Of a stretch of DNA of 64,000 nt, positions 13,756 through 18,658 are shown piece after piece. Below the pieces are notes generated by a model that saw only the letters and a program-made list of their open reading frames with translations, did no database searches and was not told where the DNA came from. This DNA is from Leifsonia sp. fls2-241-R2A-40a (GTDB lineage Bacteria; Actinomycetota; Actinomycetes; Actinomycetales; Microbacteriaceae). The position numbers were made by a program, and so were the translations under genes. The stretch's first letter is position 1. Every line of letters starts with the position of its first letter. Where the stretch lies: the NCBI RefSeq assembly GCF_030209575.1, contig NZ_JARVRS010000001.1:3224001-3288000 (forward strand). The letters run 5' to 3'.

Positions 13756-14274
13756 ATGGCCGAGAGCTCGGAATCCGTGGACAACTCCCCTGCTGGCGAA
13801 ACCGTGAGCAGCGGTCGCGAGCGCGTCATCGCCGACGCGGAAGCGCGCGGGGTGGACATCCGCATCGTGGAGCGGGTCGCGGCCCGCAGCCTGGAGGAGG
13901 CCGCGGAGGTGCTGGGCATCCAGCCGTCGGACATTGTCAAGACGCTGGTCGTGAAGCGCAGCGACGACACCTTCGTCTTCGCGCTCGTGCCCGGCGGCCG
14001 GAAGATCGCGTGGCCCAAGCTCCGTTCGGTGCTCCAGGTGAACAAGCTGCAGCTGCCGGACGCGTCCGTCGCCCTGGCCGCCACCGGCTACGCCCGCGGC
14101 ACCATCACCCCGTTCGGCAGCACGACCGCGTGGCCCGTCGTCGCCGACGCGACGATCGTCGGGCGCACCGTGTCGATGGGCGCTGGCGAGGCCGGCTACT
14201 CGCTCTTCGTCGACGCCGATGACCTCATCGCCGCGTACGGCGCCACCGTCGCCGACATCACCGACCCCGAGTAG
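13756..14274 (+). CDS. YbaK/EbsC-family aminoacyl-tRNA deacylase
   Basis: 172 aa. YbaK domain from about residue 35 to the end. Family landmarks are GIQPSDIVKTLVVKRSD with the conserved lysine, FALVPGGRKIAWPKLR and GYARGTITPFGS. These proteins clear misacylated tRNA such as Cys-tRNA(Pro). It is divergent from the dusB-like gene, with 33 nt between the starts. The ATG at 13756 is preferred, but a GTG at the conserved region (about 13804) is possible because the first 16 residues look unconserved. Confidence 0.9.
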   Translation: MAESSESVDNSPAGETVSSGRERVIADAEARGVDIRIVERVAARSLEEAAEVLGIQPSDIVKTLVVKRSDDTFVFALVPGGRKIAWPKLRSVLQVNKLQLPDASVALAATGYARGTITPFGSTTAWPVVADATIVGRTVSMGAGEAGYSLFVDADDLIAAYGATVADITDPE

Positions 14275-14284
14275 CCCCTATCGA

Positions 14285-14335
14285 GTGGTCCCAACACGCT
14301 GTTACGGCAGCACCATTACGGCGCGTTGGGACCAC
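14285..14335. repeat. Palindromic repeat, left flank of the DUF559 gene
   Basis: Imperfect inverted repeat. Arm GTGGTCCCAACACGCTGTTA.. (14285-14307) matches the reverse complement of 14313-14335 at 19 of 23 positions, with a 5-nt spacer. A related palindrome sits at the other end of the DUF559 gene. It also lies just after the YbaK gene and could terminate it. Confidence 0.75.
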
Positions 14336-14394
14336 TGGATAGGCGGCCTGTGGATAGGCCGGAGGCGCGGTGCACACTGCGGCAGAGTGGCGGG

Positions 14395-15309
14395 ATGCGA
14401 ACTCCCCGACCCCTCCCACCGACGCTGAGATCGCCGAGCTTTTCTGTCGAGGCCGCGAGGCAGGCCGGTGTGCCGGCGCAGCGGCTCCGTCGCGCGGACC
14501 TGACGGCGCCGTTCCATGGCGTGCGCTCTCTCCCAGGCGCCGACGACGAGCTGGTGGAGCGGTGCGCCGCATATCGAGCGGCTATGCGGGAGGGGACGTT
14601 CTTCAGCCATGTCACTGCCGCGGCACTCTACGGGCTGCCGCTGCCCATGAGGTTCCGGGGGCGGGACATCCACGTGTCGTCCGTTCTCCCCGTCCGCGCG
14701 CCGAAGGGCCGCGGAGTCATCGGACACGCCCTCGGGCACCCTCCGCCGCTCCGCACGGTCTGCGGCCTGAAGGTACCTGAGCCGCAGGAGGTGTGGTGCG
14801 AGCTGGCCGCACTTCTCACCGTCGAAGAGCTGGTGATGGCAGGAGACGCGCTCCTTCGCCGCAAGCATCCCCTGTGCGAGCACGTGACGCTGATGGATGC
14901 AGCTGCGAACGCGATCGGACGCCCGGGTGTGCGCACGCTGCGAGCCGCGGCCGCGCTCGTGAGGCCGCGGACGGACTCACCCATGGAGTCCGTCCTGCGG
15001 TTGGCAATCGTTCGAGCGGGTCTGCCAGAGCCCGGCGTCAACGCACCGATCGTCGATTCCTCCGGTCGGATCCTTGCTTCCGGCGATCTCGTCTTCCCCA
15101 ACGAGCGGCTCGTCGTCGAGTACGACGGCGATCACCACCGCACTGACGCGAAGCAGTACCAGACGGACATCGACCGCATCTATGTCGTCGAGACGCTCGG
15201 CTGGCGGGTTCTGCGCATCAGTAAAGAGCACATGCGGGACAATGCGCGGGAAGCGCTCCGCCGCATACGGACTGCTCTTGGAACTGGTGGTCCGAACATG
15301 CCGTTTTGA
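14395..15309 (+). CDS. DUF559 (VSR-like) endonuclease-domain protein
   Basis: 304 aa. The N-terminal two thirds resemble the AbiEi-like/winged-helix region of standalone actinobacterial DUF559 proteins (FFSHVTAAALYGLPLP). The C-terminal domain carries the Vsr/PD-(D/E)XK-like core LVVEYDGDHHRTDAKQY, DIDRIYVVETLGWRVLRISK. Biochemical function is unknown; DNA nicking is inferred from the fold. It is bracketed by two related palindromes, and its last codons (GGPNMPF) are encoded inside an arm of the right one. This looks like an accessory gene inserted between otherwise housekeeping genes. Confidence 0.8.
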   Translation: MRTPRPLPPTLRSPSFSVEAARQAGVPAQRLRRADLTAPFHGVRSLPGADDELVERCAAYRAAMREGTFFSHVTAAALYGLPLPMRFRGRDIHVSSVLPVRAPKGRGVIGHALGHPPPLRTVCGLKVPEPQEVWCELAALLTVEELVMAGDALLRRKHPLCEHVTLMDAAANAIGRPGVRTLRAAAALVRPRTDSPMESVLRLAIVRAGLPEPGVNAPIVDSSGRILASGDLVFPNERLVVEYDGDHHRTDAKQYQTDIDRIYVVETLGWRVLRISKEHMRDNAREALRRIRTALGTGGPNMPF

Positions 15310-15337
15310 CGAACTCGTAACGGCGTGTTGGGACCAC
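15287..15337. repeat. Palindromic repeat, right flank of the DUF559 gene
   Basis: Arms 15287-15307 and 15318-15337 form an imperfect inverted repeat; the right arm reads GTGGTCCCAACACGCCGTTA on the minus strand. It shares its arm sequence with the palindrome at 14285-14335 and a CAACACGCCGT core with that at 18607-18658. It separates convergent genes, so it may act as a bidirectional terminator. Confidence 0.75.
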
Positions 15338-15341
15338 TAGG

Positions 15342-15461
15342 TCACGGGAGGGCGCAGGTGTCACCGTCGCAGACGGCGGCCGGGGCGCCGAGCGGGACAA
15401 GGGTCGGGCGCGGCGGCGTAGCCGCAGGAGCCGCCTCGGCGCCGGCAGGCGCCGTGCTCAC
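15342..15461 (-). CDS. Small 39-aa protein coupled to the DsbA/FrnE-like gene
   Basis: 39 codons: an Ala/Pro-rich N-terminal half, then LVPLGAPAAVCDGDTCALP ending at the stop. The GTG start overlaps the stop of the upstream oxidoreductase gene (GTGA), the hallmark of translational coupling. The tail has two cysteines as C-x4-C. Coupling to a thiol oxidoreductase makes it a candidate redox partner or substrate, but that is inference. I do not recognise a family. Confidence 0.5.
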   Translation of the reverse strand: MSTAPAGAEAAPAATPPRPTLVPLGAPAAVCDGDTCALP

Positions 15462-16129
15462 GCGGTCACCTCGGCGCGCTCGGACCACACCTGCTCCAGG
15501 ACCTGGGCGAAGGTCGCCGCGTCCTGGGCTCCGGAGACGCCGTACTTGCCGTCGATGACGAAGAAGGGGACGCCGTTGATCCCGTACTCGGCGGCGGTGG
15601 CCTGGTCGGCGCGCACCTCGTCGACGTACTGCGACGACTCCAGCGCTGCCACGGCGGCGTCGCGGTCGAGACCGACCTCGGCGGCCAGGTCGGCCAGGTC
15701 CGAGATCCGGCCGACGTGGCGTCCCTCGACGAAGTAGGCGCGGAAGAGTCGCTCGGCCAGTTCCAGCTGCTTGCCCTGCGCCTTGGCGAAGTGCAGCAGC
15801 TCGTGCGCCTTCACGGTGTTCGTGTGCTTCAGGGTGTCGAAGTCGTATTCGAGCCCGACGGAGGAGGCGATCCCGGTCACGCGCTCCAGCATCTGCTCGA
15901 CCTGCGAGGCCTGCATTCCCTTGTGGCCGGCGAGGAAGTCGATCTCGCTGCCCTCGAAGTCGACGGGGGTGTCCGGCGACAACTCGAACGAGTGGTACTC
16001 GACCTCGACCCCGCGGCCGTCGCCGGCGTCGGCGAAGAGGCCGCTGCCGGCCTCGAACTTGCGCTTGCCGATGTAGCACCACGGGCATGCGATGTCGGAC
16101 CAGATGTCGATCTTGATGGGTTCGCTCAC
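15458..16129 (-). CDS. DsbA-family (FrnE-like) oxidoreductase
   Basis: 223 aa thioredoxin-fold protein of the cytoplasmic FrnE/YwbO type, with no signal peptide. The active site is SDIACPWCYIGKRKFE, a CPWC motif. The helical insertion (HTNTVKAHELLHFAKAQG) and the cis-proline segment GINGVPFFVIDGKYGVSGAQ are present. I chose the GTG at 16129, directly before the conserved start; an in-frame TTG at 16156 would add nine unlikely residues. It is followed by a coupled small ORF and lies 27 nt after uppS. Confidence 0.92.
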   Translation of the reverse strand: MSEPIKIDIWSDIACPWCYIGKRKFEAGSGLFADAGDGRGVEVEYHSFELSPDTPVDFEGSEIDFLAGHKGMQASQVEQMLERVTGIASSVGLEYDFDTLKHTNTVKAHELLHFAKAQGKQLELAERLFRAYFVEGRHVGRISDLADLAAEVGLDRDAAVAALESSQYVDEVRADQATAAEYGINGVPFFVIDGKYGVSGAQDAATFAQVLEQVWSERAEVTA

Positions 16130-16156
16130 CTCAAAGACAACGGTGCAGGACTGCAA

Positions 16157-18606: not shown

Positions 18607-18658
18607 GTTGACGCAACACGCCGTCCGCGACGAGCGCGAGACGGCGTGTTGCGTCAAC
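18607..18658. terminator. Perfect 19-bp palindrome between convergent genes
   Basis: Arms 18607-18625 (GTTGACGCAACACGCCGTC) and 18640-18658 are perfectly complementary with a 14-nt loop. It lies between the plus-strand TRIC gene stop and the minus-strand leuA stop, a good position for a bidirectional terminator. Its CAACACGCCGT core also occurs in the palindromes flanking the DUF559 gene. Confidence 0.8.

Follow-up and report, generated by a model that had tools for sequence, protein, structure and literature searches.

A nuclease gene framed by matched palindromes in Leifsonia, and a candidate REP/RAYT-like role for its family in Actinomycetota

Introduction

The closest described counterpart of the locus treated here is the REP/RAYT system (repetitive extragenic palindromes, REPs, with REP-associated tyrosine transposases, RAYTs; REPtrons and REPINs; HUH TnpA-REP). 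As portrayed in the relevant portions of the cited sources, an enzyme gene is flanked on both sides by cognate palindromes, extragenic copies are dispersed through the genome, enzyme and palindrome diverge together, palindrome abundance tracks the enzyme, and inheritance is vertical and single-copy (PMC2817692, PMC8049555, PMC8266576, PMC3733652). The locus itself lies in a stretch of 64,000 nucleotides from Leifsonia sp. fls2-241-R2A-40a (genome G000, G000:C1:3224001-3288000), called the window below; all plain positions are counted from its first letter. Here a nuclease gene of the DUF559/MTES_1575 family (14395..15309, + strand) stands between two related palindromes, and a third lies nearby. 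The original prediction, made from the sequence alone, held that nuclease and palindromes may form one unit with the logic of REP/RAYT, or else that the palindromes are ordinary terminators with a core in common by chance.

To our knowledge, no enzymes other than HUH tyrosine transposases have been linked to repetitive extragenic palindromes. In the open-access literature (subscription papers and preprints not covered), no report linking DUF559/MTES_1575 genes to palindromes was found. Two papers contain both “DUF559” and “palindrom”; their titles concern CRISPR in Aliivibrio (PMC8861277) and NAD metabolism (PMC9454445). As far as found, framing by matched palindromes is known from an unrelated enzyme family and has not yet been described for this nuclease family.

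Two further groups are relevant. AbiEi antitoxins belong to type IV toxin–antitoxin systems; in the pertinent passages of one source, AbiEi recognises a pair of 23-bp inverted repeats with 3 bp between them, and the paired 23-bp repeats bound by Rv2827c are separated by 13 bp (PMC7319586). REPs with a CGTC tag have been described with no dedicated transposase, according to part of another source (PMC3733652).

Matched palindromes at the ends of the nuclease gene

Both ends of the window's nuclease gene carry an imperfect palindrome, as predicted from the letters and now borne out by inverted-repeat arms and hairpin folding. The 5' palindrome (14277..14343, subtype AGTGGTCCCAACACG) has 31-nt arms at 14277-14307 and 14313-14343 that are 84% complementary. 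The 3' palindrome (15287..15338) does contain the last codons of the gene, including the stop TGA at 15307-15309. Left and right copies agree at 73% in direct and 77% in inverted orientation over 52 nt. The third, dispersed palindrome (18607..18658) is perfect, as had been claimed: its two 19-nt arms (18607-18625 and 18640-18658) are 100% complementary across a spacing of 14 nt. It lies between a Gly_transporter-family gene and a convergent gene, presumably leuA. Its relationship to the flanking pair stands as far as the common core goes; in its arms it belongs to a genome-wide sister subtype (GTTGACGCAACACGCCGT, arms GTTGACG), whereas the flanking pair is of the GTGGTCC subtype.

DNA hairpin folding gives z-scores of -7.0 (left), -6.5 (right) and -9.9 (third), each beating 200/200 shuffles. 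The core CAACACGCCGT, with at most one mismatch, occurs seven times in the window, five times within the three palindromes and twice elsewhere; 1.8 would be expected, and none of 100 window shuffles reached seven. A scan for terminator-like sites (a stem plus a T run) gave no call at these three palindromes.

The arrangement recurs across the family. A bracketing score was obtained by local alignment of the 5' flank against the 3' end of each gene in both orientations, with a threshold of 18.5, the 99th percentile of the scores in 953 Leifsonia control windows matched in geometry. In 28 Leifsonia genomes, 35/51 PF04480 genes exceed it. A genus profile search, matching in 27/28 genomes, added further homologues, and 44/49 of these (a part of those listed) are bracketed. 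For this second set, orthologous flanks and common palindrome families pushed the 99th percentile of a swap control up to 29.6, and 18.5 was therefore applied here too. In total, 79 of the 100 Leifsonia nuclease genes examined have matching palindromes at both ends.

Beyond the genus, a set was formed from the best 80 of at least 566 confirmed candidates, spanning 25 named genera and some unclassified bins; 2/80 were dropped for short flanks, and 9/80 are Leifsonia genes overlapping the first set. Here 54/78 score above the 99th percentile seen in 3709 control windows (47/69 outside Leifsonia). A profile search of the phylum matched in 103/296 sampled Actinomycetota genomes, some over the nuclease part only, and 19/29 loci tested are bracketed. 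DUF559 genes elsewhere thus carry palindromes as well, mostly of other sequences.

Gene-level controls, at a score of at least 20, set the family apart from its surroundings: 32/48 DUF559 genes against 0/82 neighbouring genes in Leifsonia (3/51 dropped for want of a start or for short flanks), and 51/77 against 2/255 in the 25-genus set, where starts were placed nominally 930 nt before the stop. Palindromes therefore flank DUF559 genes more often than other genes, which the original prediction had put up for checking. Both control matches proved to be MTES_1575-family genes themselves; at a score of at least 18 a third control gene appears (L239, 19.5), of the FTR1 family and not a nuclease.

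Counted back from the stop codon of a gene some 900 nt long, the 5' copy of bracketed cassettes is found at about 950-1350 nt, which places it around or upstream of the start. The 3' copy often overlaps or touches the stop codon and is as regular as the 5' copy.

Two Arthrobacter loci hold second nuclease-family genes a few kb off, bracketed by matching repeats (L215:1409-2341 and L224:1507-2484); both surfaced blind, as control outliers. Three Leifsonia nuclease genes with two overlapping matches each are probably broken copies (G019:C2:542783-543677, G018:C1:2577945-2578836, G017:C45:231288-232153), and palindromes are still present at the genes of G019 and G018.

Fixed sites and species-specific ends

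The nuclease genes stay at their addresses, since 89/100 Leifsonia genes fall into five orthologous sites (23, 20, 17, 15 and 14 genes), with one gene per genome at each. Seven more form three small shared clusters and four stand alone; clusters were built by single linkage on at least 200 bp of shared outer flank. Copies at many unrelated sites, as insertion sequences would have, are thus not what was found, and the cassette, judged by its distribution, appears not to move as a unit.

Within each site, and for every gene with usable flanks, the score of the 5' flank with the 3' end of the same gene was compared with its scores against the 3' ends of other genomes. The own end scores higher in 448/506 comparisons at site 0, 371/380 at site 1, 217/240 at site 2 (the window's site) and 182/182 at site 4, and in 1350/1524 over all sites. 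At sites 0, 1, 2 and 4 the median score with the own end is 28.5, 38.75, 25.75 and 40.0, compared with 13-15 between genomes. The test had first been limited to bracketed genes (408/440 at site 0, 360/380 at site 1, 185/210 at site 2, 57/70 at site 3, 180/182 at site 4 and 4/6 at site 5) and was therefore repeated without that selection; the figures of the repeat are the ones used. Palindromes from many species have little or no likeness to each other at sites 1 and 4; at sites 0 and 2 the core is often common to species and the remainder differs.

Palindrome families also cluster on the protein tree: 11 changes suffice for all groups, against 31.3 in shuffles, with the groups assigned by reading and the clades largely coinciding with sites. 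A branch with support 97/91 separates the ATTCGT group from all the rest; for the mixed group “other” there is no clustering (44/500 shuffles as low). Two of the eight GGAGGA rows (L073, L080) and some others lie below the bracketing threshold.

At the window's own site, between the tRNA-editing and DSBA-like genes, the cassette is present in 18 and absent from 8 of the 28 genomes; empty sites, another matter raised at the outset, therefore exist. The remaining two genomes show a contig end and a degenerate left gene. Filled and empty states interleave on the tree of the neighbouring DNA, with at least 5-6 changes, and at two of the eight empty ones (G008, G017) there is a palindrome with a different sequence. 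Most filled sites have the core CAACACGCCGT or a near form in common, with outer arms that vary by species (GTGGTCC, GTTGACG, GGGGTCG, GGGGACG, TGGGACG and others) and mostly agree between the two ends. The palindromes of G005 are wholly different, and G018 is without a clear pair. At the contig end (L132, G023:C25) the contig stops behind the stop codon of the nuclease, cutting off the 3' palindrome, in sequence that we take to resemble a sequencing adapter. The junction that holds the third palindrome in the window is occupied in other species by different palindrome families or by different sequence.

Dispersed copies

The core also occurs far from any cassette. The window's genome contains 28 exact copies of CAACACGCCGT and 2 of a reversed-pattern control; of the 28, at least two stand as single cores outside palindromes (L010, L014). 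The full palindrome, sought in related genomes as the original prediction had suggested, occurs in 17/28 Leifsonia genomes (control 0). Its centre is 15 or 16 nt long in 52/52 copies read, although 12-20 was permitted. In the window's genome, 11/11 intact copies read lie between predicted genes, 5/11 of them between convergent genes and two left unassigned. Most dispersed copies there are of the sister subtype, not the cassette's own; the GTGGTCC subtype has two clear further relatives (G000:C1:3189653 and G000:C1:2464783).

A cassette element is a palindrome of about 60 bp; in the window's family the arms are about 20-23 bp around a 15-16 bp centre. Across 52 CAACACGCCGT-family elements, the only family whose arm length was measured, left-right complementarity exceeds the expectation from column composition 3-12 nt outside the 11-nt core; it is strong to 7 nt, weak after, and fades at 8-12 nt.

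A link between copy number and gene is seen with ATTCGTSACGAAT, the main motif of site 0. Its counts range from 0 to 456 per genome (49 in the window's genome), with none for the control in 28/28 genomes; one element can hold at least two motifs, and there are therefore fewer elements than motifs. In the 17 genomes with a site-0 cassette of that type, 4-451 copies lie outside the cassette, while the 11 genomes in which no such cassette was found hold 0, 0, 0, 0, 0, 0, 0, 1, 3, 20 and 31 (Mann-Whitney p 1e-4). The site-1 motif GAGTTGCGACAT reaches 13 in G000 (3 at the cassette), 9 in G009 and 3, weakly, in G016, all with a cassette of that type at site 1; G025, with variant arms, has 0. The expectation that GAGTTGCGACAT is abundant where the site-1 cassette is of its type was not fixed beforehand. 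Outside Leifsonia, forward matches to CGAGATGCCACTT number 89, 16, 2 and 2 in four genomes of Rathayibacter, with none for the control.

A finer correspondence, in which the arms of dispersed CAACACGCCGT copies would match the window-site cassette of their own genome, was rejected: 1053/40320 label permutations do as well. That test covers 47 fetched copies in eight genomes; own arms are best for G011 and G016 and tied best for G006 and G020. G009 has no cassette at the window's site, yet keeps five CAACACGCCGT-family copies. By such patterns, cassette types are likely to have been replaced while older dispersed copies persisted.

Some copies are grouped. Four full CAACACGCCGT palindromes stand about 100-180 nt apart in an array like a bacterial interspersed mosaic element (BIME) at G021:C1:1369712-1370130 (L116:3713-4223), with five matches of the left core. 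At G007:C1:42567-42879 the site-0 motif ATTCGTCACGAAT forms a regular array in exact 75-nt steps, with at least five repeats among the matches listed. A separate family with core CTTTGCAC has three copies in 200 kb of G021 (L267-L276, offsets 69740, 120078 and 159108). No cognate was found among the cassettes read in G021; its nuclease may have been lost, or may be a weak homologue outside those read.

The gene, its product and its neighbours

The gene at 14395..15309 yields 304 aa from the ATG at 14395, a predicted start picked via alignment with relatives; an alternative upstream TTG (14326) falls within the 5' palindrome. In Pfam, PF04480 (DUF559) scores above and PF18741 (MTES_1575) below its cut-off. 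NCBIfam gives a single match, below cut-off (E 0.0097), and PADLOC two weak ones (mREase_II E 3e-4, AbiEi E 0.04).

A structure model from 30 aligned sequences (mean pLDDT 89.1, pTM 0.84) predicts an AbiEi-antitoxin-like fold joined to a Vsr/EDxHD-type nuclease. The putative DNA-binding part covers residues 3-190 (14401..14964, + strand), and realignment of Foldseek candidates matches it to the AbiEi antitoxin of Streptococcus agalactiae (6y8q_A, Z 10.8, 168 aligned). The nuclease domain, by predicted fold and alignment, covers residues 191-300 (14965..15294, + strand). Residues 195-300 match the catalytic domain of the homing endonuclease I-Bth0305I (3r3p_A, Z 12.5, 95 aligned), and residues 193-304 match E. 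coli Vsr (1cw0_A, Z 10.5); the VSR-like identity first proposed for the protein agrees with this predicted fold. E198, D231, E242, H248 and D258 are invariant in 30/30 alignment rows and, by analogy with Vsr/EDxHD families, are presumably catalytic. Mean pairwise identity is 0.37 and 0.42 in the N-terminal part and 0.45 in the nuclease. The alignment gives no strong sign that the former is a fast-evolving reader domain, because its divergence is barely above that of the nuclease. Model residues 155-304 also resemble in fold Toxoplasma and Tetrahymena mitoribosomal proteins and human FASTKD4 (Z 7.8-10.1).

The left neighbour (13756..14274, + strand, PF04073), an aminoacyl-tRNA editing gene that we take to be ybaK, has matches in 28/28 Leifsonia genomes and forms the left border of the orthologous site. 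The right border is a DSBA-like gene (15458..16156, - strand, PF01323 over 15461-16126), presumably frnE. With PF04073 (tRNA_edit) and PF01323 (DSBA) as the neighbours, no AbiEii toxin stands beside the gene.

Proposed role and alternative explanations

With moderate confidence, the locus can be read as part of a system that resembles REP/RAYT but depends on an unrelated enzyme: a nuclease at a fixed site, framed by palindromes, that would maintain a dispersed family. The unit first proposed thus gains support from the bracketing, the controls, the empty sites and the matching of ends within species. A broader claim stands at about even chances, namely that this is a second, independently evolved upkeep of repetitive extragenic palindromes. 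In it, host-resident, vertically inherited AbiEi-Vsr nucleases would recognise arm pairs of about 23 bp and act by biased gene conversion and slow seeding, with several systems per genome, each with its own palindrome, throughout Actinomycetota.

We infer that the nuclease binds the arms and cuts, and that repair copies the palindromes. In size the palindrome roughly corresponds to a double site of the AbiEi type, and part of the protein is AbiEi-like; for these reasons two protein molecules are proposed on the two arms. The AbiEi-like N-terminal part would bind both arms as an inverted-repeat pair, so that two nuclease domains of the Vsr type come to lie at the palindrome's centre or foot. 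There they might nick or cut, on duplex or extruded hairpin, and repair would then copy palindrome sequence from another copy. Repeated cut-and-convert could homogenise the cassette ends and keep the dispersed copies alike, occasionally seeding a new intergenic site; protein specificity and palindrome sequence would change together. Such a mechanism would explain the matched ends, the dispersed kin and the joint change of protein and palindrome.

Several observations weigh against this reading. Some copies occur where no cognate cassette was found: G009 and G024 hold 31 and 20 copies of ATTCGTSACGAAT, G010 has 15 GAGTTGCGACAT matches despite another site-1 cassette type, and in the Rathayibacter genome with 16 motif copies the gene at the single locus read (L240) is not bracketed. 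Conversely, the Rathayibacter genome with the bracketed gene L244 has only two forward motif matches. Dispersed CAACACGCCGT copies of G000, G010, G019 and G021 are nearer to another genome's cassette arms than to their own. The non-fitting copies (in G000, G009, G010, G019, G021, G024 and Rathayibacter) may be remnants of replaced or lost cassettes. In 200 kb compared between the sister genomes G019 and G021, palindromes stand mostly at the same places, and their spread is therefore slow; at offset 128856 of G021 a different palindrome is found in G019, and the one at offset 196665 is absent from G019.

Not every site behaves alike. Site 3, where proteins carry an AbiEi_4 domain where scanned, shows no within-genome effect (128/210) and only 5/15 bracketed genes, and at site 5 the own end is higher in 4/6 comparisons. 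Control windows of the 25-genus set reach scores as high as 54 in some cases, which only 6/78 genes exceed, and the top control genes sit in loci with a second nuclease gene. On the structural side, Foldseek alone gives no match at E <= 0.001 (3r3p_A at E 0.02), and the AbiEi match has an rmsd of 5.4.

The strongest rival has the binding step in common with the proposed system. On this view an AbiEi-like repressor binds the palindromes and controls its own gene through the 5' copy. The copies at the 3' end and elsewhere in the genome would be secondary regulatory sites, a regulon or sinks, and the nuclease domain would have other targets, such as phage or damaged DNA. AbiEi-family proteins do autoregulate through inverted repeats upstream of their own genes, in the portion of the source that deals with this (PMC7319586). 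The arm length is similar to that of AbiEi repeats, and the position of the 5' copy at or before the gene start would suit an operator. A 3' copy as regular as the 5' one fits less well, however; up to 456 motif copies is high for a regulon, no promoter is expected between the convergent ends where 5/11 intact copies of the window's genome lie (2 left unassigned), and regulation alone leaves the joint replacement of both ends unexplained. This account is unlikely, yet it keeps a share of the probability worth reckoning with.

It is improbable that the unit is a classical mobile element, with the nuclease as transposase or homing gene, the palindromes as terminal inverted repeats and single copies as remnants. 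A cassette with ends, a nuclease fold nearest to a homing endonuclease, and the interleaving of filled (18) and empty (8) states all suit such an element. The distribution does not: 89/100 genes occupy five orthologous sites, one per genome, with 7 in three small clusters, and the palindromes found at a given site vary from species to species, as inherited transposon ends would not. Mobile insertion is largely rejected, given the fixed sites. The fixed-site argument is qualified by two Arthrobacter-type loci that hold two neighbouring family genes with related repeats.

Passive homogenisation supposes that nearby inverted repeats convert each other without the nuclease and that the dispersed copies are functionally unrelated. 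Because the cassette ends are about 1 kb apart, such conversion is feasible. It leaves unexplained why the nuclease family is bracketed but its neighbours are not, why palindromes cluster on the protein tree and why dispersed copy number tracks the cognate gene, and it is accordingly given very little credence.

Least credible of all are ordinary bidirectional terminators with a chance common core: the palindromes do form hairpins, lie between genes and in 5/11 intact copies of G000 separate convergent ones, but the model fails because no stem-plus-T-run site occurs at the three palindromes, copies also stand upstream of the nuclease gene and ends match within and not between species, and it is further opposed by sequence-specific subtypes, a fixed centre length and the lack of matched pairs around 82 neighbouring genes.

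If the REP/RAYT-like reading holds, the same architecture has arisen with a non-homologous nuclease, and whether selfish spread or host use maintains such repeats becomes testable by comparing two independent inventions. It offers a candidate function for a large family of previously unassigned role (103/296 sampled phylum genomes), and a natural series of protein-palindrome pairs from which the DNA-recognition code of AbiEi-type domains might be read.

Comparison with known systems

The C-terminal predicted fold and the invariant E, D and H link the protein to Vsr and to the EDxHD homing endonuclease I-Bth0305I; in contrast to both, the domain is joined here to an AbiEi-like part and tied to a palindrome population, not to an intron or a mismatch. 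The AbiEi antitoxins (S. agalactiae AbiEi, Rv2827c) resemble it in predicted N-terminal fold and in inverted-repeat DNA sites of similar arm length, the palindrome being the putative site here. They differ in that the window's gene is without an adjacent AbiEii toxin, has a fused nuclease and has repeats at both ends and genome-wide. CGTC-tagged REPs are likewise dispersed palindromes with no known transposase, in the part of the source that treats them (PMC3733652); here a common CGTC tag is missing (10/52) and a candidate enzyme is identified.

Likeness is greatest to REP/RAYT. Flanking on both sides is found in 35/51, 44/49, 54/78 and 19/29 genes of the successive sets, though not in most site-3 genes. 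Dispersed extragenic copies are present, the window's own GTGGTCC subtype having only two further ones. Copy number tracks the enzyme gene for one family, with G009, G024 and G010 as exceptions. Divergence of enzyme and palindrome together, and vertical inheritance as a single copy, are likewise features in common with REP/RAYT. The differences lie in the parts. A GTAG tag at the palindrome foot occurs in only 1/52 dispersed and 1/44 cassette elements, and the repeat is one long palindrome of about 60 bp, not short hairpins. The enzyme is an AbiEi-like/Vsr-like nuclease by predicted folds, without an HUH/Y1 domain: Pfam scans of the window's protein and eight relatives show no Y1_Tnp. RAYT-borne REPs were rejected as a source, Y1_Tnp (PF01797) matching at E <= 0.001 in 0/28 Leifsonia genomes, while the same search was positive in 5/14 control genomes. 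The system would thus work like REP/RAYT but is not one. By architecture alone it might be called a variant; because neither its enzyme nor its repeats are homologous to those of REP/RAYT, it is rated a new kind.

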